A stretch of 64,000 nt of DNA, from positions 2,260,998-2,324,997 of the forward strand of contig CP124529.1 of NCBI GenBank assembly GCA_029953615.1. The letters run 5' to 3'. The translations under genes were made by a program, and so were the position numbers. The DNA comes from Pseudomonas putida (GTDB lineage: Bacteria > Pseudomonadota > Gammaproteobacteria > Pseudomonadales > Pseudomonadaceae). Position 1 is the first letter of the stretch. Each line of letters begins with the position of its first letter. The notes below the pieces were generated by a model that saw only the letters and a program-made list of their open reading frames with translations, had not been told where the DNA came from and did no database searches. Positions 19,675 through 45,378 of the stretch are shown here, one piece after another.

Positions 19675-20448
19675 CTATAAGCCGTTACTGCTGGCCAGAA
19701 TATGCGAATGCATACCGCCATCGACCGCCACATTGGTACCGCGCATCCAGCGTGATCCGTCGCTGAGCAGAAAGGCCACTACCGGCGCAATATCGGAAGC
19801 GTGGCCGGGTCGATCCATGGTTTTCATGTCTTCTTCGGCACGGGCACCGAGGGTTTCGATGAAGTCCTTGAGGATCGGTGTGTCTACCGGGCCTGGGCTG
19901 ACGGCATTCATGCGAATGCCGCGATCGCGCCAGGTCCAGCGATGCTGCAAGGTCCAGGCGATCAGCGCTTCCTTGGAGAAAAAATAGCTGCGCGCGCCGA
20001 CGATCTCATGGCGAGCACAGAACGCCGCTGCGCCAGAGAAACTCAGATGTTCACTGTCTTTGATCGCAGCGATTGACTGTGGCCAGCCCACACCCGCGAG
20101 CGAGGCCAAGTTGACGATGGAGGCGTTGTCGGCGAGGCGCGGCAACATCCCTAGCGTAAGGTACTTGAGACCGACCAGATTGACCTTGAGCACCAGCTCG
20201 GCATTTTGCGTCGGTGCCAAGCCAGCGATATTGGCCAGGCCGTCAATGCCATCGGGCAGCTGCCCGAGCAATGAGTCGATCGAGGCCTGGGACGACAAGT
20301 CGGCCTGGATGAAGCGGTCGACCTCGACTGTGGGGCGGTTGATGTCAACGCCGATCACGTGGGCACCCTGGGCGCGCGCAAGCCGGGCGGTTTCTTCACC
20401 GATGCCTGAGGACACACCTGTGATGACCAGCACTTTACCGTTCAGCAT
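19675..20448 (-). CDS. SDR-family aryl-alcohol (coniferyl-alcohol-like) dehydrogenase
   Basis: A 257-aa short-chain dehydrogenase with the cofactor motif ITGVSSGIG near residue 9, an Asp at the end of the second strand (VIGVDIN) that favours NAD+, and the catalytic SYFFSKEAL (Tyr-x3-Lys) near residue 155. It resembles CalA-type coniferyl alcohol dehydrogenases in its overall pattern, including the C-terminal WMRGTNVAVDGGM. ATG 20448 follows GGGAGAACG. It is the third gene of the pobA-aldehyde dehydrogenase operon, 19 bases after the second gene. By context it may interconvert (4-hydroxy)benzyl alcohol and aldehyde. Substrate is inference. Confidence 0.8.
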   Translation of the reverse strand: MLNGKVLVITGVSSGIGEETARLARAQGAHVIGVDINRPTVEVDRFIQADLSSQASIDSLLGQLPDGIDGLANIAGLAPTQNAELVLKVNLVGLKYLTLGMLPRLADNASIVNLASLAGVGWPQSIAAIKDSEHLSFSGAAAFCARHEIVGARSYFFSKEALIAWTLQHRWTWRDRGIRMNAVSPGPVDTPILKDFIETLGARAEEDMKTMDRPGHASDIAPVVAFLLSDGSRWMRGTNVAVDGGMHSHILASSNGL

Positions 20449-20467
20449 GATCGTTCTCCCGTTGGCC

Positions 20468-21943
20468 TCAGAATGGATAGCGTCGCGGGCTGGCTTGCAC
20501 GCTGATCCAATGATCGGTAGTGAACTCCTCGATGGCCCAGTCGCCATTGAAACGACCAAGCCCAGAGTTCTTTTCGCCACCAAATGGTGCATGCGCCTCG
20601 TCATTCACCGGGATATCGTTGACGTGAGTCATCCCGGCCTTGACCTTGCGGGCGAAGCGCACAGCACGTTCCAGATCGCCACTGAACACAGCGCTGGACA
20701 GGCCAAATTCGCTGTCGTTGGCCAGCTCGAGGGCGTGGGCTTCATCACGTGCGCGCTGAATTCCAACCAGAGGGCCAAAGATCTCCTCGCGGGCGATCTC
20801 CATATCCTTGGTGACATCCGCAAACACATGCGGCGCCAGCAATTGCCCTTGTACCTCGCCTTCGACTACGGTCCGGGCACCCTCCTGCTTGGCTCGCGCA
20901 ATCTTTTCCACCAGACCTTGCAATTGCTTGGCATTGATAATCGGCCCGATCACTGTGTCAGCCTCGTGTGGGTTGCCGACTTTCAACGCTTTTACTTTCT
21001 TGGCATAACCCGCGACAAATTCATCGTAGATCGCGTCTTCAACGATGATCCGGTTGATCGCCATGCAGATCTGACCCTGATGAAGGAACTTGCCCATCAC
21101 CGCCGCGCCTACCGCTTGTTCGAGGTCAGCATCGGCCAGGACCACGAAGGGGCTGTTGCCACCCAGTTCTAGCGCCACATGCTTGAGGTGCTGCCCGCCC
21201 GATGCCAGGCGGCCGATGTTCAGCCCGACTGGGGTCGAGCCTGTGAAGGAGATGAACTTGGGCACCTCATGCTCGACGAACGCATTGCCGATTTTCGCCC
21301 CGGCGCCGACCACGACGCTGATCAGCCCCGCCGGCAGCCCGGCTGCCTCGTACAGACTGGCCAGGAGCAGACCGCCGGTGACCGGCGTGTCGCTGGCAGG
21401 CTTGATCACTACAGCGTTACCCAAGGCCAAGGCAGGCGCAACGGAGCGCTGCGACAAGTGCAGAGGGAAGTTCCATGGGCTGATCACGCCAACAACCCCG
21501 AGCGCCTCACGGTATACGCGGTTTTCCTTGCCAGGCACATTGGACGGCAACAGGCGGCCGTGAACCCGGGCCGGGAACGAGGCCGACTCCAGGGTAATGC
21601 TGCGCGCCGCGCCCCATTCGATTTGCGCTTTGATGCGGGTACTGCCCGACTCGCGAATGATCCAGTCGATGATCGCTTCGCGGTGCTCGTCGAATAACTG
21701 CACCACGCGATGCATCACCGCTGCCCGCTCGGCAGGGCCGGTGGCGGCCCACTGCACCTGCGCTTGCGCGGCCTTGCGATAGGCTTCATCAAGGTCGTCG
21801 CGATCAGCCTGGACAATTTGCGCCAACTCGCTGCCATCGAACGGGTTGGTCACCTGCAGCACACTGCCGTCACGGCCGTCGCGCCATTGACCTGCAATGA
21901 ACTGTTGGGAGAAGACTGGGAATTGCGTGGCAAGGTGAGTCAT
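20468..21943 (-). CDS. Benzaldehyde dehydrogenase-type aldehyde dehydrogenase
   Basis: A 491-aa NAD(P)+-dependent aldehyde dehydrogenase. The glutamate motif is [11 protein letters not shown], and the catalytic Cys is in [13 protein letters not shown]. The C-terminal [20 protein letters not shown] closely resembles the tail of XylC-type benzaldehyde dehydrogenases. It follows pobA on the same strand, 64 bases away, and precedes the SDR gene. Oxidation of (4-hydroxy)benzaldehyde to (4-hydroxy)benzoate would link benzoylformate decarboxylase to PobA. The close relatives vanillin and 4-hydroxybenzaldehyde dehydrogenases are the main alternatives and would still fit. Confidence 0.87.
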
Positions 21944-22007
21944 GAGTTACCTCTTTATTGGAGTAGCGCTCATCGTTCGATGAGTCGTTGATCACAGCGC
22001 AGGGGGT

Positions 22008-23225
<1,218 letters not shown>

Positions 23226-23324
23226 TTACGATTTGTCGTTCTGTATTTTTCGCAGATAAAGGTTCTATAAAAAGGCAATTTCTGCTTTATTTTTAGGACT
23301 TTTCGAGGATCGGCAGGTATCCGT

Positions 23325-24194
23325 ATGGCGACTGTGAATGGCATCCCGGTGTTCAAGCTCTACGGCGAGACGTCCTGGCCGACGCCGGACCTGATCCACT
23401 GCGAGTCGATACCTGAGCGCAGCCGTTTGCATGATTGGGAAATTAAGACCCACCGCCACGGTGACCTTGCTCAGTTGCTCTACGTACAGGCCGGACAGGC
23501 CCGGGTCTTGGTCGAAGGTGTCGAGCAACAAGTGAGCGGCGGTGCCCTGCAGATTGTTCCGGTGATGAGCATTCATGGTTTTCGCTTCTCCGAGGACATT
23601 CAGGGCTACGTGATAAGCCTGGCCAAGCCGGTACTCGACCGCTTTGCGCCGTTGCTTGAAGGCAAGCCGATGGCTGAAGCACACTGCTACTGGGCCGGCG
23701 ATGACCGTGATTACCTTGAACAGTTGCTCGCCCAGCTGACCGAGGAATACGCCTCCCGCCGGCCGGAGCGCGACCTGATGTTGCAGTCGCTGCTGTGCGC
23801 CCTGCTGGTATGGATCTCGCGGCGTTCTCGCGAACGTGCACAGCACATCGCCAAACCCCGAGAGCGCGGCATGCAGCACCTCGATCACCTCGCGCAGCTG
23901 ATTGAAAAGCACTTCCGGGAACACCAACAGATCGAGCACTACGCCCAGCAGATCGGCGTCAGCACTGCCCACCTCAATGCGCTGTGCCGGCAGCTTGCCG
24001 GGCAGTCTGCGCTGCAACTGGTCAACCAACGGGTGATCCTCGAGGCCAAGCGCAACCTGGTCTACACCTCCATGACCATCGGACAGGTAGCCGACAGCCT
24101 GGGCTTTGCCGAGCAGGCTTATTTCTCGCGCTACTTCAAGCGGGCCACCGGGCTGACGCCCAAGGAGTTCCGCCTGCAACGCAGCGAGGTTTAG
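23325..24194 (+). CDS. pobC: AraC-family activator of pobA (PobC/PobR type)
   Basis: A 289-aa regulator with an N-terminal cupin sensing domain (THRHGDLAQLLYVQAG) and a C-terminal AraC DNA-binding pair, including IGVSTAHLNALCRQLAG and VADSLGFAEQAYFSRYFKR. Pseudomonads use an AraC-type protein, called PobC or PobR, to switch on pobA in response to 4-hydroxybenzoate, unlike the IclR-type PobR of Acinetobacter. It is divergent from pobA with 132 bases between them. Its stop overlaps the convergent reductase gene by four bases. Confidence 0.9.
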   Translation: MATVNGIPVFKLYGETSWPTPDLIHCESIPERSRLHDWEIKTHRHGDLAQLLYVQAGQARVLVEGVEQQVSGGALQIVPVMSIHGFRFSEDIQGYVISLAKPVLDRFAPLLEGKPMAEAHCYWAGDDRDYLEQLLAQLTEEYASRRPERDLMLQSLLCALLVWISRRSRERAQHIAKPRERGMQHLDHLAQLIEKHFREHQQIEHYAQQIGVSTAHLNALCRQLAGQSALQLVNQRVILEAKRNLVYTSMTIGQVADSLGFAEQAYFSRYFKRATGLTPKEFRLQRSEV

Positions 24195-25099
24195 CCCTCG
24201 CTGACCTTGACCAGGTTGTACAGCGCCTGCAGCACTGGCGTCGCCACGCCCAAGCGCTTGCCCTGCGCGACGACTGCTCCATTGATGAAATCAATCTCGG
24301 TTTTTCGCCCGGCTTCCAGGTCCTGCAGCATCGACGGCTTGTGCTGCTGGTGATTGCGCAAGGCGTAGTCGACGGCAGCGTTGACTCGCGCGCCATCTAC
24401 CGCGATGCCATTCGCCTGGGCAACGGCCACTGTTTCCGCAAGGATGCTGTCCAATACCTGGCGCCCCTGCTCGGAGCTGCCAACCGCACCGACCGTCTGT
24501 CGAGTAACGGCACACACCGAGTTGAGTGCTGCGTTGAAGGCAACCTTTTCCCAGATCGCTACCTGTACCTGCGGATCGGCCTCACAGGCCAATCCAGCCT
24601 GGCTGAATACAGCGGCAACCTCTTGAACCACCGGACTGTCTTCGCCGCTATAGGACCAGAGGTTGACGTGGCCTTCGCCATGGCTATGCACCACGCCTGG
24701 CGCCACTAGGTCGGCAGGAAAGTTGGTCATGCCGACGATCACGCGTTCAGCAGGCACCACCTCGGCAATCAGTTCGGCGTTGCCCAGGCCATTCTGTAAC
24801 GACAGCGCCCAGGTGTCGGACCCGACCAGATGACGCACTGAGTCGATCGCCGCTGCGGTGTGAAAACCTTTGGTGAAGATCACCAGCAAATCAACGTGGC
24901 CAGAAAATTGCGCTGCCCGTCCAATCGGGACCTGCACGGTTGCCTGCACATCGGGGGTTTCCAGGCGCAGACCCTGCCGGCTGATGATCTCGATGGCGTG
25001 GTCGGAGGCTTCGACAAACGAAACATCTTGCCCTGCCAATGCCAGACGGGCGCCAAACAGACCGCCCATGGCTCCCGCACCAACAATCGCAATCTTCAT
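24191..25099 (-). CDS. Ketopantoate-reductase-family dehydrogenase, candidate (R)-mandelate dehydrogenase
   Basis: A 302-aa protein with the N-terminal NAD(P) fold (IVGAGAMGGLFGARLA), the domain-linking segment WEKVAFNAALNSVCAVT with the catalytic Lys, and KPSMLQDLEAGRKTEID in the helical C-terminal domain. These are hallmarks of ketopantoate reductase (PanE). A biosynthetic role is unlikely within a catabolic island. Enterococcal D-mandelate dehydrogenases belong to this same family, so oxidation of (R)-mandelate to benzoylformate is a plausible role. This would pair with the divergent nitrilase gene 229 bases away and complement the (S)-specific FMN enzyme encoded at 42194. The family is certain; the substrate is inference. 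Confidence 0.75.
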   Translation of the reverse strand: MKIAIVGAGAMGGLFGARLALAGQDVSFVEASDHAIEIISRQGLRLETPDVQATVQVPIGRAAQFSGHVDLLVIFTKGFHTAAAIDSVRHLVGSDTWALSLQNGLGNAELIAEVVPAERVIVGMTNFPADLVAPGVVHSHGEGHVNLWSYSGEDSPVVQEVAAVFSQAGLACEADPQVQVAIWEKVAFNAALNSVCAVTRQTVGAVGSSEQGRQVLDSILAETVAVAQANGIAVDGARVNAAVDYALRNHQQHKPSMLQDLEAGRKTEIDFINGAVVAQGKRLGVATPVLQALYNLVKVSEG

Positions 25100-25328: not shown

Positions 25329-26395
<1,067 letters not shown>

Positions 26396-26475: not shown

Positions 26476-27369
26476 ATGCAAGCCCGCAAAGACAAGACCG
26501 TCTTCACAACCTTGTGTGCAGCCCTCACAGCGTTGGCTCTGGCCAACAGCAACGTCGTCGACGCCGCCGTGCTATCAACCGATCCCGGCGACTATGTCGC
26601 CTTGCCACCGGGCACCGAGTTGGGTCTGCTGTATTACCAGCACACCGAACGCAACCGTATCAAGCTCGATGGCCGCACCGTGACCAAGGACTTTGGCCTG
26701 GACAGCGACATCGGCATCGCTCGCTTCGTGCACTGGACCACCTTGGGCGGTTTCACCGTCACGCCACAAGTCATCCTGCCCTTCGGCCATCTCGACCTGA
26801 GCGGCAGCAAGGACTATAGCGTCAGCGGCGCCGCAGACCCTATGGTCGGAAGTGCACTGTGGCTGGTAAACGACCCCAAGCAAGAGCGCTATCTCGCCAT
26901 CGCCGGCTATGTCGGCATGCCACTGGGCAGCTATGACCAAGACGCTCCGGTCAACCTCGGTGAGAACCGCTGGAAAGGCATGCTGCACCTGGCCTATGTG
27001 CAGGCGCTGTTGCCTAACACGCTGTATGCAGAGATAACGCTGGAACACGACACCTTCGGCGATAACGATGACTTCTTCGGCCAGACGCTACGCCAGGACG
27101 ATGTGTTCGAAGTGCAAACGCACCTGCGCTATGTCTTCAACCAGACGAATCAGTTCGCTGTCAGCTGGTTTCACACCACAGGTGGCGAAACCCATGTCGG
27201 TGGCGTGGCCCAGAACGACACGACCGGCACCCAGCGCTATCTGCTGACGTGGCAGCATTTCCTGCAACCGACCCTGCAGGTACAGACCCAATTCGGCCAG
27301 GACCTTGATGTCGTCAACGGCGCTCAGGAGAAATTCCGGGTGAACGTCCGCATCGCACACGCCTTCTGA
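26476..27369 (+). CDS. Phenol-degradation MetA-type outer-membrane protein
   Basis: A 297-aa exported protein with a signal peptide (TLCAALTALALANSNVVDA) and alternating beta strands ending RVNVRIAHAF, an outer-membrane barrel with a C-terminal Phe. It fits the 'MetA pathway of phenol degradation' family that recurs in aromatic catabolic operons and probably forms a substrate channel. It follows the nitrilase by 80 bases and precedes an MFS carrier by 26 bases, so the three likely form an operon for nitrile or hydroxy-acid uptake and hydrolysis. The substrate is unknown. Confidence 0.78.
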   Translation: MQARKDKTVFTTLCAALTALALANSNVVDAAVLSTDPGDYVALPPGTELGLLYYQHTERNRIKLDGRTVTKDFGLDSDIGIARFVHWTTLGGFTVTPQVILPFGHLDLSGSKDYSVSGAADPMVGSALWLVNDPKQERYLAIAGYVGMPLGSYDQDAPVNLGENRWKGMLHLAYVQALLPNTLYAEITLEHDTFGDNDDFFGQTLRQDDVFEVQTHLRYVFNQTNQFAVSWFHTTGGETHVGGVAQNDTTGTQRYLLTWQHFLQPTLQVQTQFGQDLDVVNGAQEKFRVNVRIAHAF

Positions 27370-27395: not shown

Positions 27396-28622
27396 ATGAA
27401 AAAACTCTCTTACGAGTGGAAGCTGGTACTCCTGCTGGCTGTCCTGTTCGGGATCGTCGGCCTTGACCGGTTTGTCGTTCTCTATCTGTTCCCAGTGATC
27501 ATCCCTGAGCTTGGCCTCAACAATATGCAGGCCGGCGCCATAGCTTCCGTGCTGGCGTTAACCTGGGCGATCTCGACCTGGGTACTGGGCAGCATGTCCG
27601 ACAAGTACGGGCGCAAGCGGGTGCTGATCTATTCGACGCTGTTTTTCTCGCTGATGACCTGGATGACAGCTATCGCCAAGAGTTTCACCAGCATGCTGGT
27701 GATCCGAGGGCTGCTGGGCATAGGCGAAGGTGGCGTATTCAGCACCAGCGTCGCAGCCATTGCCAGCGCCTCCTCGCCCGATAAAAAAGGCCTCAACCTG
27801 GGGATCCACCAGGCCTTCTTCCCGCTGCTGGGGATCGGGCTGGGGCCGATCATCGCCACTCAGCTCAATAACTACATGCCCTGGGAGATGGTCTTTATCG
27901 TGGTGGGCGTGCCCGGCGTGCTGCTAGCCTGGTGTTTGGCCAGGTTCATGCGTGAGCCCGCACGGGAGGCGCCAAGTGCCCACGGCGCCTCAAGCGATGG
28001 CGCCTTCGCGGCGCTGCGTTACCGTAACATCTGGGTCGCCACCATGGTCAGTTGCTGCTTCCAGACGGGCCTGTTCGTTTTCTCGACCTTCGTTGCGCTG
28101 TACCTGACCCAGGTCGTAGGCCTGGAACTGAGTACGGTTGGCCTGATCGTTTCCGGCTGGGGCTTCGGCGGTTTCTTCGGCATGATTATTATGCCGGCGC
28201 TGTCTGACCGTGTTGGCCGGCGCCCGATCATGATTGTCTGCGCGGCGGCCTACAGCGCGCTGATGCTGGTATTTGCGCTGTACCCACTGCCCCCGGCCGG
28301 TATGTTCGCGCTGTTGTTCATTGCAGGTGTATTCGGCTTCGGCATTGCGCCGATATTTCTGGCGATCATCCCCGCAGAAACCGTACCCGCGCGCATGACC
28401 GGTAGCGCCGTGGGCATTCCGACCTGCATCGGCGAGATGCTCGGTGGCGTTCTCATGCCTATCGTCGCGGGAGGGCTAGCTGATGCATTTGGCCTGCAGT
28501 ATCCGATGATGATTGTCGGCGTGGCCTTCGCCACCATCGCTATCGTCTCGTTCGCCTTCATCGAAACGGCGCCACGCGCCTTAGCCAGCGCAGCATCCCC
28601 TGAGCGTGCCGCCACCCTGTAG
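27396..28622 (+). CDS. MFS transporter in the nitrilase operon
   Basis: A 408-aa inner-membrane carrier with twelve likely helices. The MFS loop 2-3 signature is GSMSDKYGRKRVL, and its repeat in the second half is ALSDRVGRRPIMI. It belongs with the metabolite:H+ symporter type but lacks the DGYD motif of the aromatic acid AAHS carriers, having GLDRFVVLYLFP at that place. It lies 26 bases after the porin-like gene. Import of an arylhydroxynitrile, its acid, or a related compound is inferred from context only. Confidence 0.83.
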   Translation: MKKLSYEWKLVLLLAVLFGIVGLDRFVVLYLFPVIIPELGLNNMQAGAIASVLALTWAISTWVLGSMSDKYGRKRVLIYSTLFFSLMTWMTAIAKSFTSMLVIRGLLGIGEGGVFSTSVAAIASASSPDKKGLNLGIHQAFFPLLGIGLGPIIATQLNNYMPWEMVFIVVGVPGVLLAWCLARFMREPAREAPSAHGASSDGAFAALRYRNIWVATMVSCCFQTGLFVFSTFVALYLTQVVGLELSTVGLIVSGWGFGGFFGMIIMPALSDRVGRRPIMIVCAAAYSALMLVFALYPLPPAGMFALLFIAGVFGFGIAPIFLAIIPAETVPARMTGSAVGIPTCIGEMLGGVLMPIVAGGLADAFGLQYPMMIVGVAFATIAIVSFAFIETAPRALASAASPERAATL

Positions 28623-32729: not shown

Positions 32730-34369
<1,640 letters not shown>

Positions 34370-34405: not shown

Positions 34406-34511
34406 TAAATCTGATCTATTTTATAGCGCTTGAATCCGTTGCCGGGCTCTAGCCACGCTGCCAGCGGTGCAGAAGCGTATCTCGATATACAAAAACAACA
34501 GGCGTGCGGTC

Positions 34512-35566: not shown

Positions 35567-36573
35567 CAGTGATATCCCTCGCCGACTTTGACCTTGCCGC
35601 GGAAAACGTAATACGACCAGGCTGAATAACCCAGAATGAACGGAATGATGAACAGCGCGCCGACCAAGGCGAAGCCCAGGCTCTGCGGCGGGCCGGCCGC
35701 CTCCCAGATAGTCAGGCTCGGTGGCAGCACATAGGGCCAGATGCTGATCAGCAGCCCCGTGTAGCCGAGAAAGACCAGCACCAGCGACCAGATGAACGGG
35801 CCAGCATGAGGCACACCGCGCAGCGACCGCAGGATCGCCCAGGTAGCCAGCATGACCAGCAGCGGCACCGGCAGGAAGAACCAGAAGTTTGGCAGGCTGA
35901 ACCAGCGCTCGAAGATCGCCGGATGGGTCATCGGCGTCCAGATGCTCACTACCAGCATGGTCACCACTGTCGCCAGGGTGATCGGCGTTGCAGCGCGAAT
36001 GATGCTCGCCTGCAGCGGCCCCTCAGTCTTGTACACCAGCCATGTCGCGCCGAGCAGCGCGTAGGCCACCACCACACCCAGGCCACAGAATACGTTGAAC
36101 AGCGTCAGCCAGCTCAAGACGTCGTTGGTGGCTACGCCGTCGACGATCTGATGGCCTTCGATGAACGCCCCCAGGATCACTCCCTGGAAGAACGCTGCGG
36201 CGAATGAGCCAGACATGAATGCTCGGTCCCAGAACGGCTTGTGCGCCTCGTCTGCCTTGAAACGAAACTCGAACGATACGCCTCGCCAGATCAGCCCGGC
36301 CAGCAAGCCCAGCGCTGGCAGGTACAGCGCGCTCAGCAGAATCGCATAGACCTTCGGAAAGGCCGCCATCAGCCCGGCGCCCCCCAGCACCAGCCAGGTT
36401 TCGTTGCCATCCCATACCGGCGCCACGGTGTTGACCATGGTGTCGCGGTGTTCGCGATCACGGATGAAAGGAAAGAGAATGCCGATTCCCAGGTCGAAGC
36501 CGTCTGTGATGACATACATCATCACCCCGAAGCCGATGATCAGGAACCAGATCAGCGGAAGATCTATACCCAT
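35566..36573 (-). CDS. cioB: Cyanide-insensitive quinol oxidase subunit II
   Basis: Subunit II of the bd-family quinol oxidase that lets pseudomonads respire in the presence of cyanide. The 335-aa protein has about eight membrane helices. It begins MGIDLPLIWFLIIGFGVMMY and includes the family motif GFDLGIGILFPF and WDGNETWLVLGGAGLMAAFP. ATG 36573 is chosen because GGGAGACG lies about eight bases before it. It is 17 bases after cioA and overlaps the small subunit gene. In this island it could protect respiration from HCN released by hydroxynitriles. Confidence 0.94.
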   Translation of the reverse strand: MGIDLPLIWFLIIGFGVMMYVITDGFDLGIGILFPFIRDREHRDTMVNTVAPVWDGNETWLVLGGAGLMAAFPKVYAILLSALYLPALGLLAGLIWRGVSFEFRFKADEAHKPFWDRAFMSGSFAAAFFQGVILGAFIEGHQIVDGVATNDVLSWLTLFNVFCGLGVVVAYALLGATWLVYKTEGPLQASIIRAATPITLATVVTMLVVSIWTPMTHPAIFERWFSLPNFWFFLPVPLLVMLATWAILRSLRGVPHAGPFIWSLVLVFLGYTGLLISIWPYVLPPSLTIWEAAGPPQSLGFALVGALFIIPFILGYSAWSYYVFRGKVKVGEGYH

Positions 36574-36590
36574 GACAACGTCTCCCGTAG

Positions 36591-38011
36591 TCAATGTGTG
36601 GAGTTGGATGCGCCGGACAGTGACTCGTCCACCGCAGACAGCGGGCGAGCCGGGCGCTGGTTGTCAGCGATGTCCGCAGGGTGCGGTTCATCCGCCTGCG
36701 GCCCCTTTCGCACCAGGCGCAACATGTAGGTAATACCAGTGCCGAAGATGCCCAGGTACATCACCACCAGCACCACCAGGCCGACAGTGAGGGTCATGGC
36801 CGAATGCTCGGAGACCGCGTCCTTGGTGCGCATCAGCCCATACACGACCCACGGCTGACGGCCGATCTCGGTGACGTACCAACCTGCCAGCAATGCGATC
36901 AGCCCTGACGGCCCCATGCACAGGGCAAAGCGTGCCAGCATCGGCGACTGGTACAACCGCCCACGCCAGCGCATCCAGGCGCCCCACCCGCCAAGCAGAA
37001 CCATCAGCAGGCCAAGCCCGACCATCACCCGGAAGCTCCAGAACAGCACGGTGGCGTTGGGGCGGTCCTCGCGCGGGAAGTCCTTCAGGCCAGCGATCTG
37101 CCCATCCAGCGAGTGGGTCAGGATCAAGCTCGCCAGGCGCGGAATCTCGACCTTGAACCGGGTGGTTTCCGCATCCATGTCGGGCAGCCCGAACAGGATC
37201 AACGGCACGCCCTCGCCCGGAACATTGGCCCAATGGCCTTCCACCGCAGCGATCTTCGCCGGCTGGTACTTGAGGGTGTTCAGGCCATGCATGTCACCGA
37301 TCAGTACCTGCAGAGGGGCTGTGAACAGCAGCATCCACAGCGCCATGGAGAACATGCGCTTGACTGCCGGCGTGTTGTTGCCCTTGAGCAGGTGCCACGC
37401 GCCCGAAGCGCCGACGAACAACGCCGTGGACAGCATGGCCGCAGTGACCATGTGCGCCAGGCGGTAGGGGAAGGACGGGTTGAAAATGATCGCGAACCAG
37501 TCCACCGGGATTACCACACCGTTGACCACCTCATGCCCCTGGGGGGTCTGCATCCAGCTGTTGGATGCGAGGATCCAGGTGGCAGAGATCATCGTGCCGA
37601 CGGCAACCATCAGCGTGGCGAAGAAATGCAGCCCGCGCCCGACCTTGTGCCAGCCAAACAGCATCACACCGAGGAAGCCTGCCTCGAGGAAGAATGCCGT
37701 GAGCACCTCGTAGGTAAGCAGTGGCCCGGTAATACTGCCGGCGAATTGCGAATAGAAGCTCCAGTTGGTGCCAAACTGATAAGCCATTACCAGCCCGGAC
37801 ACCACGCCCATGGCGAAGTTGACCGCAAAGATTTTCGACCAGAAGTGGTACAGGTCGAGGTAGGCGCTGTCTTTCTTCCATAGCCACAAGCCTTCCAGCA
37901 TTGCCAGAAATGCGGCCAGGCCGATGGTGATCGCCGGGAAGACGATGTGGAATGTCACGGTGAAACCGAACTCTGTAAGCGGGCCAGTTCAAGCGCTGTC
38001 AGGCCAGACAT
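36591..38011 (-). pseudogene. cioA: Cyanide-insensitive quinol oxidase subunit I, 2-base insertion as given
   Basis: Subunit I carries the haems and the quinol site. The protein should start MSGLTALELARLQ at ATG 38011 and continue FGFTVTFHIVFPAITIG, with a haem-ligand His. Two extra bases at about 37971-37974 (coding-strand CAGAGTTC for CAGTTC) shift the frame after LQ. Removing them gives 472 aa, normal for CioA. Later motifs are intact, including QFGTNWSFYSQFAGSITGPL and the short quinol loop typical of the CIO rather than the E. coli CydA type. A GTG at 37958 could start a protein lacking only 18 residues. It precedes cioB by 17 bases. Confidence 0.9.
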
Positions 38012-38013
38012 GG

Positions 38014-38493
38014 CTATACCTCATTACGTTGGGAAAGGCGCTCGAGCAGTGTCCGCGGGCGCGCGTTGTGAATGGCGCCAGCAGCTTGCTGCCAGCGCAC
38101 GACAGGGCTTGCAGGCGGTATGAGAACGCTGCTGAAACCACACTGCAGGAGCATGGCGAACTGGTCAGGTAGCAACGGCCCGGCGGCACGCAGGTCCCCG
38201 TCAAAGCCGTAGCGTTCACGCAGCAGGCGCGCTAGTGTGAAGCCGCGGCCATCCCGCGACTTGGCGAACTCCACCACGATCAGGGTGAGCTGGCCGAGTA
38301 TTGCCTGCACTTGGTCGAGCGTTTGCTCACCCGTCAGCCACAGGCCTCGGGCCGGGGTACCAAAGTGCATGTGGTAGGCATCCCATTGCTGCGGGTGGAC
38401 CACGGTGCTTGGCGAATAGGACAGCGTTTCGTCGCGATCCAGGTAGTGCCAGGTGTCGCTCTGCGGCAGGCCATGGCGATCAATGAGTATCAC
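38014..38493 (-). CDS. DUF934 protein, sulfite-reductase partner
   Basis: A 159-aa soluble protein of the DUF934 family, normally found next to CysI-type sulfite reductases and sometimes called a CysI-associated oxidoreductase subunit. Recognisable segments are LTLIVVEFAKSRDGRGFTLA and LRERYGFDGDLRAAGPLLPDQ (in part), with a hydrophobic C-terminal third. GTG 38493 is chosen because AAGGAGG stands seven bases before it; the start overlaps the cysI stop by 14 bases. The coding end lies two bases from the cioA start, so cysI, DUF934, cioA, cioB and the small subunit are probably one transcript. Confidence 0.86.
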   Translation of the reverse strand: MILIDRHGLPQSDTWHYLDRDETLSYSPSTVVHPQQWDAYHMHFGTPARGLWLTGEQTLDQVQAILGQLTLIVVEFAKSRDGRGFTLARLLRERYGFDGDLRAAGPLLPDQFAMLLQCGFSSVLIPPASPVVRWQQAAGAIHNARPRTLLERLSQRNEV

Positions 38494-40492
38494 GCAGCAC
38501 CTCCTTGAAAGGCTCGATACCGACACGCCGATAGGTGTCGAGGAAGCGCTCGTGCGGCTCACGCAGATTCAGATAGATGTCGATGATCGCTTCGATCACT
38601 TCAGGGACCTGCTCGTAGGGCACGGAGCGGCCCAAAATGGTCCCCACTGCCGCATCTTCCTCGGCGCTGCCGCCCAGGGTGATCTGGTAGTTTTCGTGGC
38701 CTGACTTATCCAGCCCGAGGATGCCGATATGCGCGACATGGTGGTGGGCGCAGGCATTGATGCAGCCAGACACATTCAGCTTCAGCTCGCCGATCTCTCG
38801 CTGCCGAGGCCCATCGAAACGCGCGGCGATGCGCTGGGCAACCGGCACCGAACGGGCAGTCGCCAGGCTGCAGTAGTCCATGCCCGGGCAGGCAATCGAG
38901 TCAGACAGCAAGCCGACATTGGCGGTGGCCAGGCCCATGGCGCACAGCGCCTGCCATACGGTGTAGAGGTCGCGCTGACGGACGTGAGGCAGTACCAGGT
39001 TCTGCTCGTGGGAAATACGCACTTCATTCAGCGAGTACCCTTCGGCAAGGTCGGCCAGCTGGAGCATCTCCTGCGTACTGATATCGCCGGGAATACCGCC
39101 TGGCGGCTTCAGCGAAACCACCGCACTGATGTATCCGCGACGTTTGTGCGGGTGGGTGTTGCTGCTCACCCAGGCGGCGAACGCCGGGTCTTCCGCGCGT
39201 CTCTCGATAAAGTCCTCGCACAGGCCCGGTAGCGTCTCGAAGGCCGGCTGCACGAAGCGTGCGGTGATCGCCTTGACGATCTCAGGCTCGAGATATTGTC
39301 GGTCGCTGGGCAGGCGCGCGAACTCGTCTTCGATCATCTCGATGAAACGGCCAGGCTTGAGCTCTCGCACCAGGATCTTGATGCGCGCCTTATACAGGTT
39401 GTCACGTCGTCCGAGCGCGTTGTAAACACGCAGAATGGCCTCGACATAACGCAGTAGTTCACGCTCAGGCAGCCACTCGCGTACGAGCGTACCGACGATC
39501 GGCGTACGCCCCAGTCCGCCGCCGGCGTAAATCTGGAAGCCGACCTGCCCCTGCTCGTTTCGACGCGCCAGAATACCGATGTCATGGAAGCGCACAGCCG
39601 CACGGTCATGCGGGCTACCGGTCATGGCGATCTTGAATTTGCGCGGCAGGTAGGTGAACTCGGGATGATCGGTCGACCACTGCCGCAGGATCTCGGCATG
39701 CACCCGCGGGTCGACCAGTTCATCGGCGGCGGCGCCAGCGAAATGGTCGGTGGTGACGTTACGGATGCAGTTGCCGCTGGTCTGAATGCAGTGCAGATCG
39801 GCATCGGCCAGCACCGATAGGATTTCGGCGGTATCTGCCAGCTTGGGCCAGTTGAACTGAATGTTCTGCCGCGTGGTGAGGTGACCATAGCCCTTGTCGT
39901 AGGTGTCCGCGACATAGGCCAGCTGACGCAGTTGCACCGCACTCAAGGTGCCATACGGAATAGCCACGCGGAGCATATAGCCATGCAGTTGCAGATACAG
40001 GCCGTTCATCAGTCGATAGACCTTGAACGCCTCTTCATCGAGCTCACCGCTGAGTCGACGTTCTACCTGCTGGCCAAACTGGCGCGCGCGATCCTTGAGA
40101 AACTCGCGTTCATCAGGGTCGTATTGATAAACCCCAGCTCTGCTGGCAGCCATGGGCACTACCGGTCGCTGGCTGGGTGACTCGGCCACAGTGCGCTCGG
40201 CGTGCGCCTGCTTACCCAGGTCGGTACGCACGGACGGACCGCGTGCCCGCAGCCGCTCGCGCAGGCTATGTGGTTCAGGGACACCTTCAACCAGCGACGC
40301 CGGGCACTGCAGTGGCCCAACCACCAGGTTGTCGCGAACCGCTGTCTCGGCAGCGCTCTGCGCAGCCGGCAACTGCTCGGCGCTGAAAACCGCAGCCTGC
40401 TCCAGGCATTCGACCCAACCATACACTTCATCCAGCCAGACCACGGCACCATCGCCAAGGCGATTGGCACAGATCAGATGGCAGTCACTCAT
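38480..40492 (-). CDS. DUF2849-CysI fusion: sulfite/nitrite reductase haemoprotein
   Basis: A 670-aa protein. Residues 1 to about 95 look like DUF2849 (ANRLGDGAVVWLDEVYGWVE then SLRERLRARGPSV), a small domain usually encoded as a separate gene beside cysI. From about residue 115 (AGVYQYDPDEREFLKDRA) it is a sirohaem-4Fe-4S reductase. It has LTTRQNIQFNWPKL, TSGNCIRNVTTDHFAGAAAD and the iron-sulfur cysteines in ACPGMDYCSLA and VSGCINACAHHH. Six-electron reduction of sulfite or nitrite is the family reaction. Clustering with cioAB and a MocR regulator suggests a role in cyanide conditions rather than routine cysteine synthesis. Similar cysI-cio clusters are, from memory, known in cyanide-tolerant Pseudomonas. 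Confidence 0.9.
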   Translation of the reverse strand: MSDCHLICANRLGDGAVVWLDEVYGWVECLEQAAVFSAEQLPAAQSAAETAVRDNLVVGPLQCPASLVEGVPEPHSLRERLRARGPSVRTDLGKQAHAERTVAESPSQRPVVPMAASRAGVYQYDPDEREFLKDRARQFGQQVERRLSGELDEEAFKVYRLMNGLYLQLHGYMLRVAIPYGTLSAVQLRQLAYVADTYDKGYGHLTTRQNIQFNWPKLADTAEILSVLADADLHCIQTSGNCIRNVTTDHFAGAAADELVDPRVHAEILRQWSTDHPEFTYLPRKFKIAMTGSPHDRAAVRFHDIGILARRNEQGQVGFQIYAGGGLGRTPIVGTLVREWLPERELLRYVEAILRVYNALGRRDNLYKARIKILVRELKPGRFIEMIEDEFARLPSDRQYLEPEIVKAITARFVQPAFETLPGLCEDFIERRAEDPAFAAWVSSNTHPHKRRGYISAVVSLKPPGGIPGDISTQEMLQLADLAEGYSLNEVRISHEQNLVLPHVRQRDLYTVWQALCAMGLATANVGLLSDSIACPGMDYCSLATARSVPVAQRIAARFDGPRQREIGELKLNVSGCINACAHHHVAHIGILGLDKSGHENYQITLGGSAEEDAAVGTILGRSVPYEQVPEVIEAIIDIYLNLREPHERFLDTYRRVGIEPFKEVLRDTH

Positions 40493-40634: not shown

Positions 40635-40656
40635 GTTTACAACCGTAGGAATCGTT

Positions 40657-42063
40657 ATGCCCCTAAGTGACGAGTCATCTGCACCACCCGTTATCGCTTG
40701 GACCAGGCCTTTTGTGCCGGGCGGAGGCGCTAAATACATACAAATTCTCGAAATGCTGGAAAAATCCATACAGTCTGGTTCACTCCAGCAAGGAGATCAG
40801 CTACCGCCGCAACGCATCCTCGCGGCTCACCTTGGCGTAGATCTCACGACTATCACTCGCGCCTACACCGAGGCACGTAACCGTGGACTGATCGCGTCCT
40901 ACAGTGGGCGGGGCTCTTTCGTTATGGGCGCCAGCGAAACTGATATGGCGCAGAGCGTCGACCTGGCGATGAACATTCCTCCGCAGCCCGCCGATGGCTC
41001 GATGGCCCAGCAGGCCAGCAGCGCGATGGCCGAGTTGTTATCTCGCGACAGCATCGAGGCGCTCTCGGCCTACCAGCAGCAGCCGGTACCCCTCGCTTTG
41101 TTAAAGGCAGCACAAGGCTGGCTGCGCCCAGCTCTGGGCGAAATTGACTGTGGCGGGCTGGTGGTTTGTTCGGGGTCCCAAGTGGCGATCTTCGCTATCC
41201 TCAGTGCGCAGACGCGCCCGGGAGACGTCGTCTTGTGCGACGCGCTTACCTACCCGGGGCTGATCCTCGCTGCCGAACAATTGAAACTGCGGCTGTGGCC
41301 TGTGCCTAGTTGCGCGCAGGGCATGCAACCCGACGCCCTGGCTCAAGCCTGTGAGGAAAGCGGCGCACGTCTGCTGTACCTGAATCCGACATTCCATAAC
41401 CCGACGGCACATACCATGCCCCTGGCACGGCGCCGAGAAATCGCCGAAATCATCCTGCGCTGCAGCATCACGCTGATCGAGGACGATCCTTACCGCTATC
41501 TCCTCGACGATGCGCCGCCGCCCATAGCCACCCTCACCGGAAGGCGCAACACCTACTACCTTGCGTCCCTGTCCAAGTGCCTGTGGCCAAGCCTGCGCAC
41601 CTCATTCGTACTCCCCCCGCACGGCGATGACGGCCAGAGCCTGCAACTCAGCCTGCGTGCGACCAGCATGGGTTGCTCGGCATTGCTGCTGGCCTTGGTC
41701 GAGCAATGGATCAGCAGCGGAGCCGCTGCGAGCTTGATGCAGGAAATCAAACGCGAAATTCGCGCCCGCCAACAATTGGCCGGCAAACTGCTGTCGCACC
41801 CGTTCCAGTCGCATCCGACCGGGCTGCATCTGTGGCTGCAGTTGCCTTCGCACTGGAATCAGGAGCTGTTCACTCATGCCCTGCGCGATCAAGGCGTGCA
41901 GGTAGCCAGCGGGCATTCGTTCGCGGTTGCGACACCTGCACCGGACTGCCTGAGAATCTCTCTGGGCGGCGCCAGCAATCAAGCCGAATTGAGCCACGCC
42001 TTGCGCAAGATCGAGACCCTCCTCAACCAGGACCGCCGGCGTGACTCGCGCACGTTCGTTTGA
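40657..42063 (+). CDS. GntR/MocR-family regulator (PLP aminotransferase-like)
   Basis: A 468-aa regulator with an N-terminal GntR winged helix (GDQLPPQRILAAHLGVDLTT then ITRAYTEARNRGLI) joined to a fold-type I aminotransferase domain. The PLP-binding Lys is in YLASLSKCLWPSLRTSF, and the aminotransferase segments YLNPTFHNPTAHTM and IEDDPYRYLL are present. It faces the cysI-cio operon across a promoter with GTATG repeats, so control of that operon is likely. No mocR-type autogenous partner gene is near. The PLP ligand sensed is unknown. Confidence 0.92.
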   Translation: MPLSDESSAPPVIAWTRPFVPGGGAKYIQILEMLEKSIQSGSLQQGDQLPPQRILAAHLGVDLTTITRAYTEARNRGLIASYSGRGSFVMGASETDMAQSVDLAMNIPPQPADGSMAQQASSAMAELLSRDSIEALSAYQQQPVPLALLKAAQGWLRPALGEIDCGGLVVCSGSQVAIFAILSAQTRPGDVVLCDALTYPGLILAAEQLKLRLWPVPSCAQGMQPDALAQACEESGARLLYLNPTFHNPTAHTMPLARRREIAEIILRCSITLIEDDPYRYLLDDAPPPIATLTGRRNTYYLASLSKCLWPSLRTSFVLPPHGDDGQSLQLSLRATSMGCSALLLALVEQWISSGAAASLMQEIKREIRARQQLAGKLLSHPFQSHPTGLHLWLQLPSHWNQELFTHALRDQGVQVASGHSFAVATPAPDCLRISLGGASNQAELSHALRKIETLLNQDRRRDSRTFV

Positions 42064-42193
42064 GCAATTGCGCAAAAACCCTGCACACCATAGACAGCGT
42101 TTATAGCCAGCGCGGCGAGTATCGATTTGCTATGGTTCTGGTCGTCCTCTAGGTTGTCTCACGGTTATTACCTTGCCGTACCATGAGGACGCT

Positions 42194-43321
42194 ATGAGCC
42201 CAGCTTTCAACGTCGTCGGCTACCGACAACTTGCCCGACAGCGTTTACCCAGAATGGTATTTGACTACCTTGAAGGTGGCGCTGACGACGAAAGATGTTT
42301 GCAGCGCAACCTCGACGCGTTTGACAAGTTGGAGCTACTACCTCGGCGGCTGGTCAATGTGGCCGAGCGGGATCTAGGCAGTCAGGTGCTCGGCAGGCAT
42401 CAGCCACTGCCGTTGATGATTGCTCCGACTGGGCTCAATGGTGCGTTCTGGCCAGGGGGCGATCTGGAAGTCGCACGCGCAGCGAAGAAGGCCGGAATTC
42501 CTTTTATTCTCTCTACTGCCTCTAACACATCGATCGAAGAAGTTGCCGAAAAGGTCGGCGGCGATCTGTGGTTTCAGCTGTACGTAGTGCACCCTACACT
42601 GGCGGACCAACTGGTCGATCGAGCTCTGGCCGCAGGCTATCGAACCTTGGTCCTGACCACTGACGTAGCGGTAAACGGCAAGCGCGAGCGAGATTTGCGC
42701 AGCGGTTTCGGCCTGCCATTCAAATACACGCCCAGAGTGATGTTAGATGGATTGCTTCACCCGCGTTGGTCGCTTCGGCTGCTCACGGCAGGCATGCCCC
42801 AGATGGCCAATTTTGCCAGCAAGGAAGCCTACGACACTGAGCTGCAAGCAGCGCTTCTTTCGCGCAAAATGGATGCTAGTTTTGACTGGGAAGCATTAAA
42901 GAGGCTACGTGCCCGCTGGCCCCATCGGCTTCTGGTCAAAGGTGTGCTTCATCCTGAGGATGCCTCGCACTGCATAGCACTGGGCGCAGATGGCGTCATC
43001 CTGTCGAATCACGGTGGCCGGCAACTTGATTCAAGCTGTTCGCCACTGACAACGCTTCAGCAGGTTGCACAGGCCCACCCCGGAAAGGTGCTGATAGATA
43101 GCGGATTCCGACGCGGCTCCGATGTAGTAAAGGCGCTTGCGCTGGGTGCTAGCAGCGTATTGATAGGGCGCCCGGTGCTCTATGGCCTTGCCGCAGCGGG
43201 TGAAAGGGGTGTGAGCGAGGTGTTGGACATTTTCAGAGATGAAATAAGCCGAACCCTGGCCAATATGGGCTGCGCGTCAGTTCAGGGGCTGACGTCGGAT
43301 TATATAATCCGTGTGTCGTGA
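42194..43321 (+). CDS. mdlB: (S)-Mandelate dehydrogenase
   Basis: A 375-aa FMN alpha-hydroxyacid dehydrogenase converting (S)-mandelate to benzoylformate and passing electrons to the quinone pool. It matches MdlB of P. putida over its whole length as I recall it: RLPRMVFDYLEGGADDE, IAPTGLNGAFWPGGDLEVAR, DLWFQLYVVHPTLADQL, VLTTDVAVNGKRERDL, DGLLHPRWSL, and ILSNHGGRQLDSS with the catalytic His. The membrane-insertion segment (MLDGLLHPRWSLRLLTAGMPQ region) is retained, unlike glycolate oxidases. ATG 42194 follows GAGGAC. It is separated from mdlC by the cio block. L-lactate dehydrogenase is the alternative, but the TGLNG and HPRWS segments favour mandelate. Confidence 0.88.
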   Translation: MSPAFNVVGYRQLARQRLPRMVFDYLEGGADDERCLQRNLDAFDKLELLPRRLVNVAERDLGSQVLGRHQPLPLMIAPTGLNGAFWPGGDLEVARAAKKAGIPFILSTASNTSIEEVAEKVGGDLWFQLYVVHPTLADQLVDRALAAGYRTLVLTTDVAVNGKRERDLRSGFGLPFKYTPRVMLDGLLHPRWSLRLLTAGMPQMANFASKEAYDTELQAALLSRKMDASFDWEALKRLRARWPHRLLVKGVLHPEDASHCIALGADGVILSNHGGRQLDSSCSPLTTLQQVAQAHPGKVLIDSGFRRGSDVVKALALGASSVLIGRPVLYGLAAAGERGVSEVLDIFRDEISRTLANMGCASVQGLTSDYIIRVS

Positions 43322-43425
43322 CAGGCAGCATGTCTGGCCCACTAGCCCCCTGACTTCGACACAGTGGATAGCAAAAACCGCTATAGACCACCTCCACCTG
43401 TCCCAGTGACGGTAGGCAGTAGCCC

Positions 43426-44370
43426 CTATTCGCAGCGATTCAAGGAAGCATCAGGAAGCCCGAGAGCTCTGTACGCCTCAGTGATCAGGCCAACCAGCAA
43501 CTGGAGTGCCGGGTCTCGGGCACTGTCCATACGCCACCCGAGCTCAACTGAGTAACGAGGCAGCTCAACAGGGCAGGGACATAAAGAAAGACCCGTGGTG
43601 TCTGCCAGAGCACGTGCAGCATGTGTTGGCAGTGTCGCGACGGAGTCACTGCCTTTGAGCAAAAACGGCAATGCCGCGAAATGAGTCGTCGCCGCTTCAA
43701 CTTTTCTTACAGCCGAACTCGCGGCAAGTACCTCATCCACAATCCCGACGTAACCACCAGAAGAAACCAGTAGATGCCCTCGCCTTAGGTACTCGTCCCG
43801 GGACAAAGTAATCATCTCCTTGCCCTCAGGAAGCGCAATCAAGCAGCTGTAGTCCCCGGTCGTGAGAACTCTTCGTCCGATCGCTCGTGAAGGGACCGAT
43901 CCCGCAGTCAAAGACACGTCGATCTTACGAGCCATAAGCGCCTCGCTCGCGATCATGCTATGGGTTTGCTTGAAAATTAAACGAAGCCCGGGAGCCCTCT
44001 CGGACACCATATTGATCAATGCCCTACCAATGGCAATCTCATAGTCATCCGACAACCCCAGTGTGAGCGTTCTGCCAGCAAACGCCTGGACCTCTTTGGA
44101 ACACAGCAGGAGAGTCTGGCGGCATTTTTCGAGAGCTGCGCTAATGACAGGTCTCAACTCCTCACTCTTCGCCGTTGGCTTCAACCCACGACCTGTGCGC
44201 TCGAACAGGTGGTCCCCGTACACTCTCCGTAACCTAGCAAGGGAGGCACTCACCGCTGATTGAGTTATTCCTAATCGGACGGCGGCGCGCCCTGCGCCCC
44301 CTTCTTCGTATAGCGCCTCGAAGACCTTGAGCAAGTTGAGGTCCAGCTCCACGATATCATTTTTAGTCAT
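43426..44370 (-). CDS. LysR-family regulator divergent from the second nitrilase
   Basis: A 314-aa LysR-type protein. The helix-turn-helix reads AAVRLGITQSAVSASLARLR near residue 30, and the effector domain contains LTLGLSDDYEIAIGRALINM and the dimer segment PRYSVELGWRMDSARDPA. The NodD/PcpR-like start, VELDLNLLKVFEALYEEGGAG, is typical of LysR regulators of aromatic genes. Only 84 bases separate its ATG from the nitrilase ATG, so the two genes share one compact promoter. Nitrile-responsive control of the nitrilase is the natural guess. Base composition is less GC-rich than in the pob and cio parts of the island. Confidence 0.87.
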   Translation of the reverse strand: MTKNDIVELDLNLLKVFEALYEEGGAGRAAVRLGITQSAVSASLARLRRVYGDHLFERTGRGLKPTAKSEELRPVISAALEKCRQTLLLCSKEVQAFAGRTLTLGLSDDYEIAIGRALINMVSERAPGLRLIFKQTHSMIASEALMARKIDVSLTAGSVPSRAIGRRVLTTGDYSCLIALPEGKEMITLSRDEYLRRGHLLVSSGGYVGIVDEVLAASSAVRKVEAATTHFAALPFLLKGSDSVATLPTHAARALADTTGLSLCPCPVELPRYSVELGWRMDSARDPALQLLVGLITEAYRALGLPDASLNRCE

Positions 44371-44454
44371 ATCAGATGCTTTCTTTGAGCTGTTGATTGA
44401 TAGCTAACCAGAAGAGGACTATGCCCATTCACACCTTCTCTTGCGAGGAAAACC

Positions 44455-45378
44455 ATGGCAACCACAACTGTTGCGGCACTTCAAATCGGCTCACACCCTG
44501 AGGGCAAAGCCAAGACACTGGAATCGATTCTTGCCTATGAGAGTGAAATTGCGGCAGCCGGTGCAGAGCTCGTGGTAATGCCGGAAGCGGTCTTGGGGGG
44601 CTACCCGAAGGGCGAAATATTCGGTACTCGTTTGGGCTACCGCTTACCCGAAGGTCGACAGGCATTCCAGACCTATTTCGAAAACTCTATCGAGGTCCCA
44701 GGCCCTGAAACTATCGAACTGGAAGGACTAGCTCAACGTACCGGAGCTCATATCGTAATCGGCGTCATCGAGCGTTCTGGAAACACCCTCTACTGCAGTG
44801 CACTTTTTTTCTCGCCTGATCATGGCCTGATCGCTAAGCATCGCAAATTGATGCCAACTGGTACCGAACGGTTGATCTGGGGGCAAGGAGACGGTTCGAC
44901 ATTACCAGTTGTCGAGTCCAAAGCAGGGAAACTGGGTACGGCCATCTGCTGGGAAAATCACATGCCGCTGCTCCGTACGGCCATGTACGCAAAAGGAGTC
45001 GAGGTGTGGTGTGCTCCCACCGTCGACGAGCGCGACGTCTGGCTCTCGTCCATGCGCCACATTGCCCATGAGGGCCGAATGTTTGTTGTGAGTGCATGTC
45101 AGGTACAGCCATCGCCAGCCACGCTTGGCATCGATGTCCCAAGCTGGGATTCCGACCGACCATTGATCAGTGGTAATAGCGTCATTATTGGCCCGCTGGG
45201 TGATGTTCTTGCCGGTCCCCTTAAAAATCAGGAAGGACTGCTCACCGCGAATATTGACCTTGGTGAACTGGTTCGTGCTCGTTATGACTTTGACGTAGTC
45301 GGTCATTACTATCGCCCCGATGTGTTTTCACTCTCGGTGGACGAGCGACCAAAACTGAGCGTCGACTTCAAAAAATGA
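44455..45378 (+). CDS. Nitrilase (second, intact; shorter subgroup)
   Basis: A 307-aa carbon-nitrogen hydrolase with the full triad: Glu44 in [14 protein letters not shown], Lys131 in [13 protein letters not shown] and Cys165 in [12 protein letters not shown]. The CWEN form, and [20 protein letters not shown] after it, indicate a true nitrilase rather than an amidase. It is about 30 residues shorter than nitrilase 1 and differs from it enough to be a separate subgroup. ATG 44455 follows GAGGAAAA. It lies next to mdlB and a divergent LysR gene at the glmS end of the island. Substrates could be aromatic hydroxynitriles, beta-cyanoalanine-like or aliphatic nitriles; sequence alone does not decide. 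Confidence 0.9.

Follow-up and report, generated by a model that had tools for sequence, protein, structure and literature searches.

Why would one neighbourhood of a Pseudomonas chromosome hold nitrilases, enzymes of mandelate breakdown, a 4-hydroxybenzoate 3-monooxygenase and a cyanide-insensitive oxidase? We addressed this question for a 26-kb island in a P. putida genome (G000; 5.76 Mb, one contig), analysing a stretch of 64,000 nucleotides that contains it (G000:C1:2260998-2324997, hereafter the window, in whose coordinates features are given). The original prediction had read the island as a pathway from aromatic hydroxynitriles to protocatechuate with built-in cyanide tolerance, and every gene family that it named is present at its place, with the frames of nit1, oprD and mdlC broken. 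Taking gene families, linkage and recurrence from the sequence, and inferring which substrates are used, how they flow, how the genes are regulated and why cyanide genes are present here, we consider it likely that the island encodes a route from an aromatic hydroxynitrile to mandelate and onward.

The gene that would open this route, nit1 (25329–26395, plus strand), contains two frame breaks and was therefore classified through its intact orthologue in P. bharatica CSV86. In a PDB search the CSV86 protein matches NitA (6zby, which we take to be NitA of P. fluorescens EBC191) with 429 bits, and by this orthology nit1 is an arylacetonitrilase gene. The CN_hydrolase Lys and Cys motifs are kept in the source genome, CSV86, Pseudomonas sp. 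T1-3-2 (G051), P. frederiksbergensis DM22 and genome G217, and the Glu region is seen in the CSV86–6zby alignment and, as a piece only, in the window. Beside the catalytic Cys stands Trp in the first four of these and Ala in G217. Passages of PMC6930498 associate a large residue at this position of arylacetonitrilases with production of (R)-mandelic acid and a low yield of amide; the Trp therefore fits a supply of (R)-mandelate. Nit1 thus resembles NitA of EBC191, as that enzyme is described in parts of the same paper, in homology and in its conserved Lys/Cys/Trp motifs, and differs from it in carrying Trp where NitA has Ala beside the catalytic Cys. A strict link between this residue and the presence of an amidase gene, which we also considered, was weakened: amidases and a racemase accompany the Ala type in G217, but an amidase is also near the Trp types of T1-3-2 and DM22. 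The two G217 amidase genes (L080:6497-8020 and L081:7385-8914) flank the nitrilase and mandelate genes, and may encode mandelamide hydrolases if the Ala-type nitrilase forms mandelamide.

The gene that would carry mandelate carbon onward, mdlC (32730–34321, minus strand, two frame breaks), reads in three frames with 92–99% amino acid identity to its counterparts in genomes G003 and G117. The intact CSV86 MdlC scores 812 bits against NF005485 (cut-off 493) and 908 bits against PDB 6qsi, and the longest open piece of the window gene reaches 476.7 bits, under the NF005485 cut-off; family membership established through the CSV86 orthologue makes mdlC a benzoylformate decarboxylase gene. The best PDB match of the (S)-mandelate dehydrogenase (SMDH; 42173–43321, plus strand) is an enzyme of that function (6bfg, 497 bits), and the SMDH next to the CSV86 cluster shares 81% identity with it.

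We found that this combination of nitrilase and mandelate genes recurs. Among 298 Pseudomonas genomes, searched at E values of at most 1e-35 for nit1 (with its longest open piece as query), 1e-90 for mdlC, 1e-110 for SMDH and 1e-60 for the second nitrilase gene nit2, nit1 occurs in 8, mdlC in 13 and SMDH in 5. The co-occurrence that the original prediction proposed looking for is there: nit1 and mdlC are found together in three genomes (the source genome, T1-3-2 and G217; P 0.003), and in all three a copy of mdlC lies within 15 kb of nit1, a second mdlC of G217 being distant. A search of 398 genomes with the CSV86 Nit1 protein gave a match at 1e-100 in 10, the source genome probably being missed because its nit1 frame is broken. 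Together with CSV86 and DM22, the nitrilase–mandelate unit is thus present in five Pseudomonas. The CSV86 cluster (L118) holds SMDH; an aldehyde dehydrogenase (ALDH) and a ketopantoate-reductase family protein (KPR); nit1, a porin and the transporter MFS1; the regulator reg1; OprD, the transporter MFS2 and mdlC; and the regulator reg2. Its core has nearly the gene order of the window, with nit1, OprD and mdlC in single frames, and its nucleotide identity to the window is mostly 82–87% (75% for SMDH). T1-3-2 carries an amidase, an OprB porin and reg2; mdlC, MFS2, ALDH, OprD and KPR; reg1; and nit1, MFS1, a transposase and SMDH. On a 32,795-base contig of DM22 we found an amidase and reg2; mdlC, MFS2, ALDH, OprD and KPR; reg1; and OprB, a GH3 beta-glucosidase, nit1, MFS1 and SMDH. 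The set of G217, which is more distant, has an aldehyde dehydrogenase and an amidase; mdlC, SMDH and a racemase; OprD, MFS2, reg2, nit1, reg1 and a porin; and, past the porin, benzoate-dioxygenase genes and the second amidase. The main text of the CSV86 papers, searched by word, contains no nitrilase, mandel-, nitrile, cyanide, phenylglyoxylate or benzoylformate.

How might these genes work together? The core would consist of nit1 with a porin and an MFS gene, mdlC with an MFS gene and OprD, KPR, SMDH, ALDH and two regulators. In the window, nit1 is followed on the plus strand by an outer-membrane protein of the Phenol_MetA_deg family (26476–27369, PF13557) and MFS1 (27396–28622, PF07690), with the AraC-family gene reg1 on the minus strand (28679–29653, PF12833/PF14525); a reg1 relative is also present in 73 of 80 nit1 loci in named genomes, the best 80 of 474 stretches that encode a nit1 relative. 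On the minus strand, mdlC is grouped with MFS2 (31335–32675; aromatic acid:H+ symporter-like, 342.9 bits against TIGR00895 and below the cut-off of 418.55) and oprD (29928–31206, PF03573, one frame break), and the LysR gene reg2 diverges from mdlC on the plus strand (34467–35432, PF00126/PF03466). KPR (24191–25099, minus strand, PF02558/PF08546) and SMDH stand as single genes. In the proposed route the core would import aromatic alpha-hydroxynitriles and Nit1 would convert the cyanohydrin to mandelate; KPR would oxidise (R)-mandelate and SMDH (S)-mandelate to benzoylformate, from which MdlC would form benzaldehyde and ALDH benzoate. PobA, with its AraC regulator and an aryl-alcohol dehydrogenase, would extend the route to 4-hydroxymandelonitrile and 4-hydroxymandelate and lead to protocatechuate. 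The natural source of the hydroxynitriles would probably be plant cyanogenic glucosides, and the HCN that hydroxynitriles release would be handled by the cio cassette (MocR, CysI, DUF934 and CioAB) and the NIT4-type nitrilase.

The known mandelate pathway of P. putida consists of the racemase MdlA, the SMDH MdlB, MdlC and MdlD. The island likewise brings SMDH and MdlC together with an aldehyde dehydrogenase, and differs in its added nitrilase module, in holding KPR in the racemase's place and in the attached genes for PobA, its AraC regulator and an aryl-alcohol dehydrogenase. Racemase-type gene sets like that of P. putida were seen in G217, G208 and G252, and the island aldehyde dehydrogenase is of another type from that in the G217 set (29% identity). 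The window contains no match to the G217 racemase. To compare the two arrangements, we counted KPR and racemase genes at 11 of the 16 known mdlC loci (those of the source genome, G003, G117, T1-3-2, CSV86, DM22, G061, G208 and G252 and the two of G217; the loci of G015, G073, G157, G265 and G272 are outside the count). KPR without a racemase was found at 7, a racemase without KPR at 3 and neither at 1 (Fisher P 0.024, relatedness ignored). PDB matches do not tell whether KPR is a mandelate or a ketopantoate enzyme; its distribution, with KPR holding the racemase's place, fits what would be expected if a direct (R)-mandelate dehydrogenase had replaced racemisation. In G003 and G117, KPR is the likeliest linked mandelate oxidiser, since the only other non-aldehyde dehydrogenase there is the short-chain dehydrogenase/reductase (SDR) of the block described next.

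That block begins the island and comprises three minus-strand genes: an SDR of the aryl-alcohol (coniferyl-alcohol) dehydrogenase subfamily (19675–20448; NF009092 308.9 bits, cut-off 242; a single weak PDB relative, 1fjh), the 4-hydroxybenzaldehyde dehydrogenase-like ALDH (20468–21943) and the 4-hydroxybenzoate 3-monooxygenase PobA (22008–23207; TIGR02360 699.1 bits, cut-off 538.7; PDB 1pbb 704 bits). An AraC-type regulator, PobR-like by position, diverges from pobA on the plus strand (23325–24194; PF12833, PF02311). The ALDH matches PDB entries 8zcx ("aldehyde dehydrogenase", 832 bits), 9jw2 (4-hydroxybenzaldehyde dehydrogenase, 831 bits) and 3r64 (benzaldehyde dehydrogenase, 653 bits), and reaches the cut-off of none of the 25 NCBIfam families listed. 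Its relatives in CSV86 (94%) and DM22 (80%) have no pobA near them in the stretches covered, so the ALDH alone is no proof of a 4-hydroxy substrate. G003 and G117 both keep SDR, ALDH, PobA, AraC, KPR, MFS2, mdlC and reg2 at 86–94% identity (G003 also OprD), with no nit1 at E 1e-35 and no SMDH at E 1e-110. Each has one PobA, that of the mdl-pob block, and no BenA above the curated cut-off, G117 being a draft of about 60 contigs. In these two genomes the decarboxylase product would most simply pass through 4-hydroxybenzoate. The predicted 4-hydroxy route is backed by the ALDH matches, the PobA score and the finding that neither G003 nor G117 has a BenA that passes the cut-off. The source genome has a BenA elsewhere and a second PobA (G000:C1:4893561, 74%), so the strain could also use unsubstituted mandelate. 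BenA of CSV86 is in three pieces, under the cut-off, and in G117 two CoA-transferase genes follow reg2.

An extension of the route to glucosides is suggested by DM22, where OprB and the GH3 beta-glucosidase lie directly upstream of nit1, MFS1 and SMDH on one strand (L196:5904-9646), an arrangement that is possibly a complete operon for cyanogenic glucosides. The GH3 gene strengthens the idea that glucoside aglycones are the source of substrate; the other stretches compared contain nothing that matches it at E 1e-15. We had also placed ben genes within this DM22 cluster and rejected them, the sequence there being OprB and GH3. Tentatively, and with somewhat less than even confidence, we propose that some Pseudomonas have a dedicated system for plant cyanogenic glucosides of the aromatic type (prunasin, amygdalin, dhurrin and taxiphyllin), in which a porin, a beta-glucosidase, an arylacetonitrilase forming the (R) product, dehydrogenases for (R)- and (S)-mandelate, benzoylformate decarboxylase and aldehyde dehydrogenase would yield benzoate or, with PobA, protocatechuate, and to which some lineages would have added a cyanide-proof oxidase, turning the plant's cyanide defence into carbon and nitrogen. 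Few plant defences are better known than cyanogenic glucosides. What would be new is the extension of the mandelate pathway upstream to hydroxynitriles and perhaps to their glucosides. In the parts of the open-access literature consulted, a body that mostly leaves subscription journals out of reach, we found no account of this gene set and no bacterial gene set for aromatic cyanogenic glucosides as food. If the proposal is true, it would explain a natural role for the arylacetonitrilases of this sub-branch, would predict an (R)-mandelate dehydrogenase within the ketopantoate reductase family, and would make it simple to test whether an oxidase insensitive to cyanide allows bacteria to feed on compounds that release cyanide. 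The core genes are present in CSV86 and DM22, making the route directly testable.

Several points weigh against a hydroxynitrile-to-mandelate route. The nit1, oprD and mdlC genes are not intact as assembled and, if the breaks are real, the pathway cannot operate in this strain. In the window the cio block separates SMDH from the other core genes, and the AraC and LysR regulators may respond to different cues. The covered loci of the four other Pseudomonas clusters with nit1 and mdl genes contain no PobA, and the beta-glucosidase was found in only one of the five clusters. Nor do the five count as independent cases: one arrangement is common to T1-3-2 and DM22, another to the source genome and CSV86.

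The most serious alternative, to which we give a little under an even chance, is that three unrelated accessory blocks (mandelate/4-hydroxybenzoate genes with a nitrilase, a cyanide cassette and an NIT4-type nitrilase) came to lie at a hot spot downstream of glmS, so that the mandelate part works and the cyanide genes are unconnected with it. The cyanide cassette consists of four minus-strand genes, for a DUF2849-CysI fusion resembling sulfite/nitrite reductases (38480–40492; PF11011, PF03460 and PF01077), a DUF934 protein (38014–38562, PF06073) and the bd-type oxidase subunits CioA (I; 36591–37973, PF01654) and CioB (II; 35566–36594, PF02322), with a divergent MocR-type GntR regulator on the plus strand (40657–42063, PF00392 and PF00155) whose place matches mocR of P. 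pseudoalcaligenes/oleovorans CECT5344. In keeping with separate blocks, a cio cluster is known on its own from CECT5344: PMC8567248 and PMC5333837 describe divergent mocR, CysI3, CioAB and Nit4, induced by cyanide, with MocR proposed by the authors as a repressor. Compared with this cioA3B3-nit4 cluster (as described there and in part of PMC11049912), the island shares a MocR gene divergent from CysI and CioAB and an NIT4-type nitrilase nearby; it differs in that nit2 has its own divergent LysR gene outside the cio transcription unit, in that metF, cysM, dapA and maeB are not seen in the island block, and in the fusion of CysI to DUF2849. The nit1C set for cyanide assimilation (nitA-nitH) was not noticed in the window annotation, NitC itself not having been searched for.

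The distribution of the cio block speaks for both sides. In G265 and G289 the block occurs with no mandelate gene across the 20 kb covered, and no cio block was found beside the cluster in CSV86 (20 kb), DM22 (the 32.8-kb contig) or G217 (32 kb). The same block is, however, beside the mdl-pob genes, without nit1, in G117; a diverged version (CysI 57/49%, CioA 67%) ends 7.6 kb before mdlC in T1-3-2; and in the window the block is flanked by mandelate genes on both sides, with SMDH beyond it. This association in two forms, one in the source genome and G117 and another in T1-3-2, is suggestive. As for the oxidase as the pathway's built-in companion, then, its proximity to mandelate genes in three genomes holds up, and its being an integral part does not follow from a published cassette that also stands apart; cyanide tolerance as a built-in part of the pathway is plausible. 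The source genome has a second CioA copy (G000:C1:1408932, 70%), and every one of the nine genomes searched carries a CioA of the 68–72% type and hence some bd-type oxidase in any case. Some CysI was found in 296 of the 298 genomes, and a full-length DUF2849-CysI of more than 80% identity only in the source genome, G117, G265 and G289; among the matches listed, alignments from the start of the query are those of these four and of G179 (59%). The fusion may therefore mark this cio cassette.

The third block contains nit2 (44455–45378, plus strand), 2.4 kb past mocR, and the LysR gene that diverges from it (43426–44370, minus strand). Among PDB entries, nit2 matches NIT4 best by a wide margin (6i00, 316 bits, with 137 for the runner-up). 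It occurs in 162 of the 298 genomes, with a relative of its LysR neighbour at 22 of the 30 nit2 loci covered, and its family is very common (7949 of 7999 scored candidates at E 1e-60); that nit2 and LysR form a common unit elsewhere again favours separate blocks. Of the claim that both nitrilases act on mandelonitrile-type compounds, the part on nit1, an arylacetonitrilase linked to mandelate genes, is likely, and nit2 was rejected as a second mandelonitrile nitrilase on its likeness to NIT4 and its wide occurrence. Nit2 is an NIT4-like enzyme whose substrate is probably beta-cyanoalanine. A P. fluorescens NIT4 homologue, PinA, is active on this compound according to part of PMC7503981, and nit2, compared here with NIT4, is presumably its orthologue.

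A less favoured alternative, which we regard as unlikely, is that the island is decaying in this strain, the breaks and the C-run being real and the pathway dead here. Compared with relatives' copies, nit1 is broken twice, by a run of 47 C (25535–25581, plus strand) and again near 25965; oprD is broken once (two frames against the G003 OprD) and mdlC twice. Single-frame copies exist for all three in CSV86, for oprD and mdlC in G003 and for mdlC in G117. Five breaks over 9 kb exceed the 0.95 expected at the rate sampled elsewhere (P about 0.003), and the C-run is the genome's sole run of at least 14 C or G; local decay is thus still conceivable. Sampling of ten 20-kb stretches, for which 153 G057 frames were entered and 99 passed 70% identity and 80% coverage, nevertheless gave 12 frame-broken orthologues among the 99, about one gene in eight, including one more than 99% identical to a relative's gene. 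At this rate, calls of gene absence in the source assembly are unreliable. The pieces of the broken genes also look constrained: relative to CSV86, the ratio of nonsynonymous to synonymous substitution (dN/dS) is 0.039, 0.051 and 0.195 for those of nit1, 0.057 and 0.046 for mdlC and 0.056 and 0.057 for oprD, compared with 0.066 for KPR and 0.04 for ALDH; the N-terminal part of mdlC, identical at 114 of 117 residues, is outside these values. Ratios of 0.04–0.20 over seven pieces indicate that the breaks are either recent or sequence errors, of which errors are the likelier cause. No break was found in ALDH, MFS2, CioA, CioB, CysI, MocR, reg2 or SMDH against relatives' copies. Genes in two frames are also seen in relatives: MFS1 in CSV86 and, in T1-3-2, both MFS genes together with portions of the cio block.

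Finally, we compared the surroundings of nit1 relatives. Outside the five mandelate-linked clusters, an aldoxime dehydratase (PF13816) is present at 58 of 87 loci, made up of 10 further Pseudomonas loci (9 with the dehydratase) and 77 loci in named genomes (49 with it; 14 of the 77 are shorter than 15 kb), versus none of the five inside (P 0.006, relatedness ignored). From this contrast, the mandelate-linked sub-branch seems to have shifted from aldoxime-derived nitriles to hydroxynitriles. The island thus resembles known nitrilase–aldoxime dehydratase–AraC gene groups in having a nit1 relative and an AraC gene side by side, and differs in carrying mandelate genes in place of the dehydratase. 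That Nit1 acts, like its relatives, on arylacetonitriles such as phenylacetonitrile or indoleacetonitrile made from aldoximes, with mandelate genes as neighbours by chance, is quite improbable: most relatives do lie near a dehydratase and arylacetonitrilases accept several kinds of nitrile (PMC6930498, in part), but the stretches covered of the five clusters have no dehydratase, in DM22 nit1, an MFS gene and SMDH run in that order on one strand, and the link to mdlC is also seen in G217, whose Nit1 is only 57–59% identical. T1-3-2 holds a second nit1 relative, this one with an aldoxime dehydratase (L093).

Two loci of interest among the 77 lie outside Pseudomonas, both in metagenome-assembled genomes. 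In one (L140:5590-11114), a nit1 relative, an AraC gene, a mandelate racemase (59%) and an amidase adjoin, possibly a non-Pseudomonas version of the nitrilase–mandelate link. The other, from Burkholderiales (L156:9791-17877), has a nit1 relative, an AraC gene and an SDR of the same type as that of the island (69%), with a PobA (60%) 4 kb on, which places a nitrilase beside 4-hydroxybenzoate genes. Both loci count in favour of the proposed route.

At its edges, the island is bounded by an imperfect inverted repeat of 22 nt with 91% identity between the arms (left, 19574–19595, plus strand; right, 45812–45833, minus strand). To the left lies a pyridine-nucleotide oxidoreductase gene (17950–19350) and to the right a gene with glmS domains (45863–47698, minus strand), the right arm being about 30 bp past its stop. 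The annotated genes of the island include no transposase, the GC profile of the window has no sharp island edge and dips only at 42–46 kb, and the tRNAs in the window gave no lead on the island. The right arm sits near the glmS end, which we take to be where Tn7-type elements insert. That the island ends at glmS is in line with unrelated blocks gathered at one site, as is another nit1 group just past glmS in G338, where a nitrilase, an aldoxime dehydratase and a porin lie directly downstream of the gene (L216:1339-7734). The site past glmS looks as if it were a hot spot for nitrile islands.

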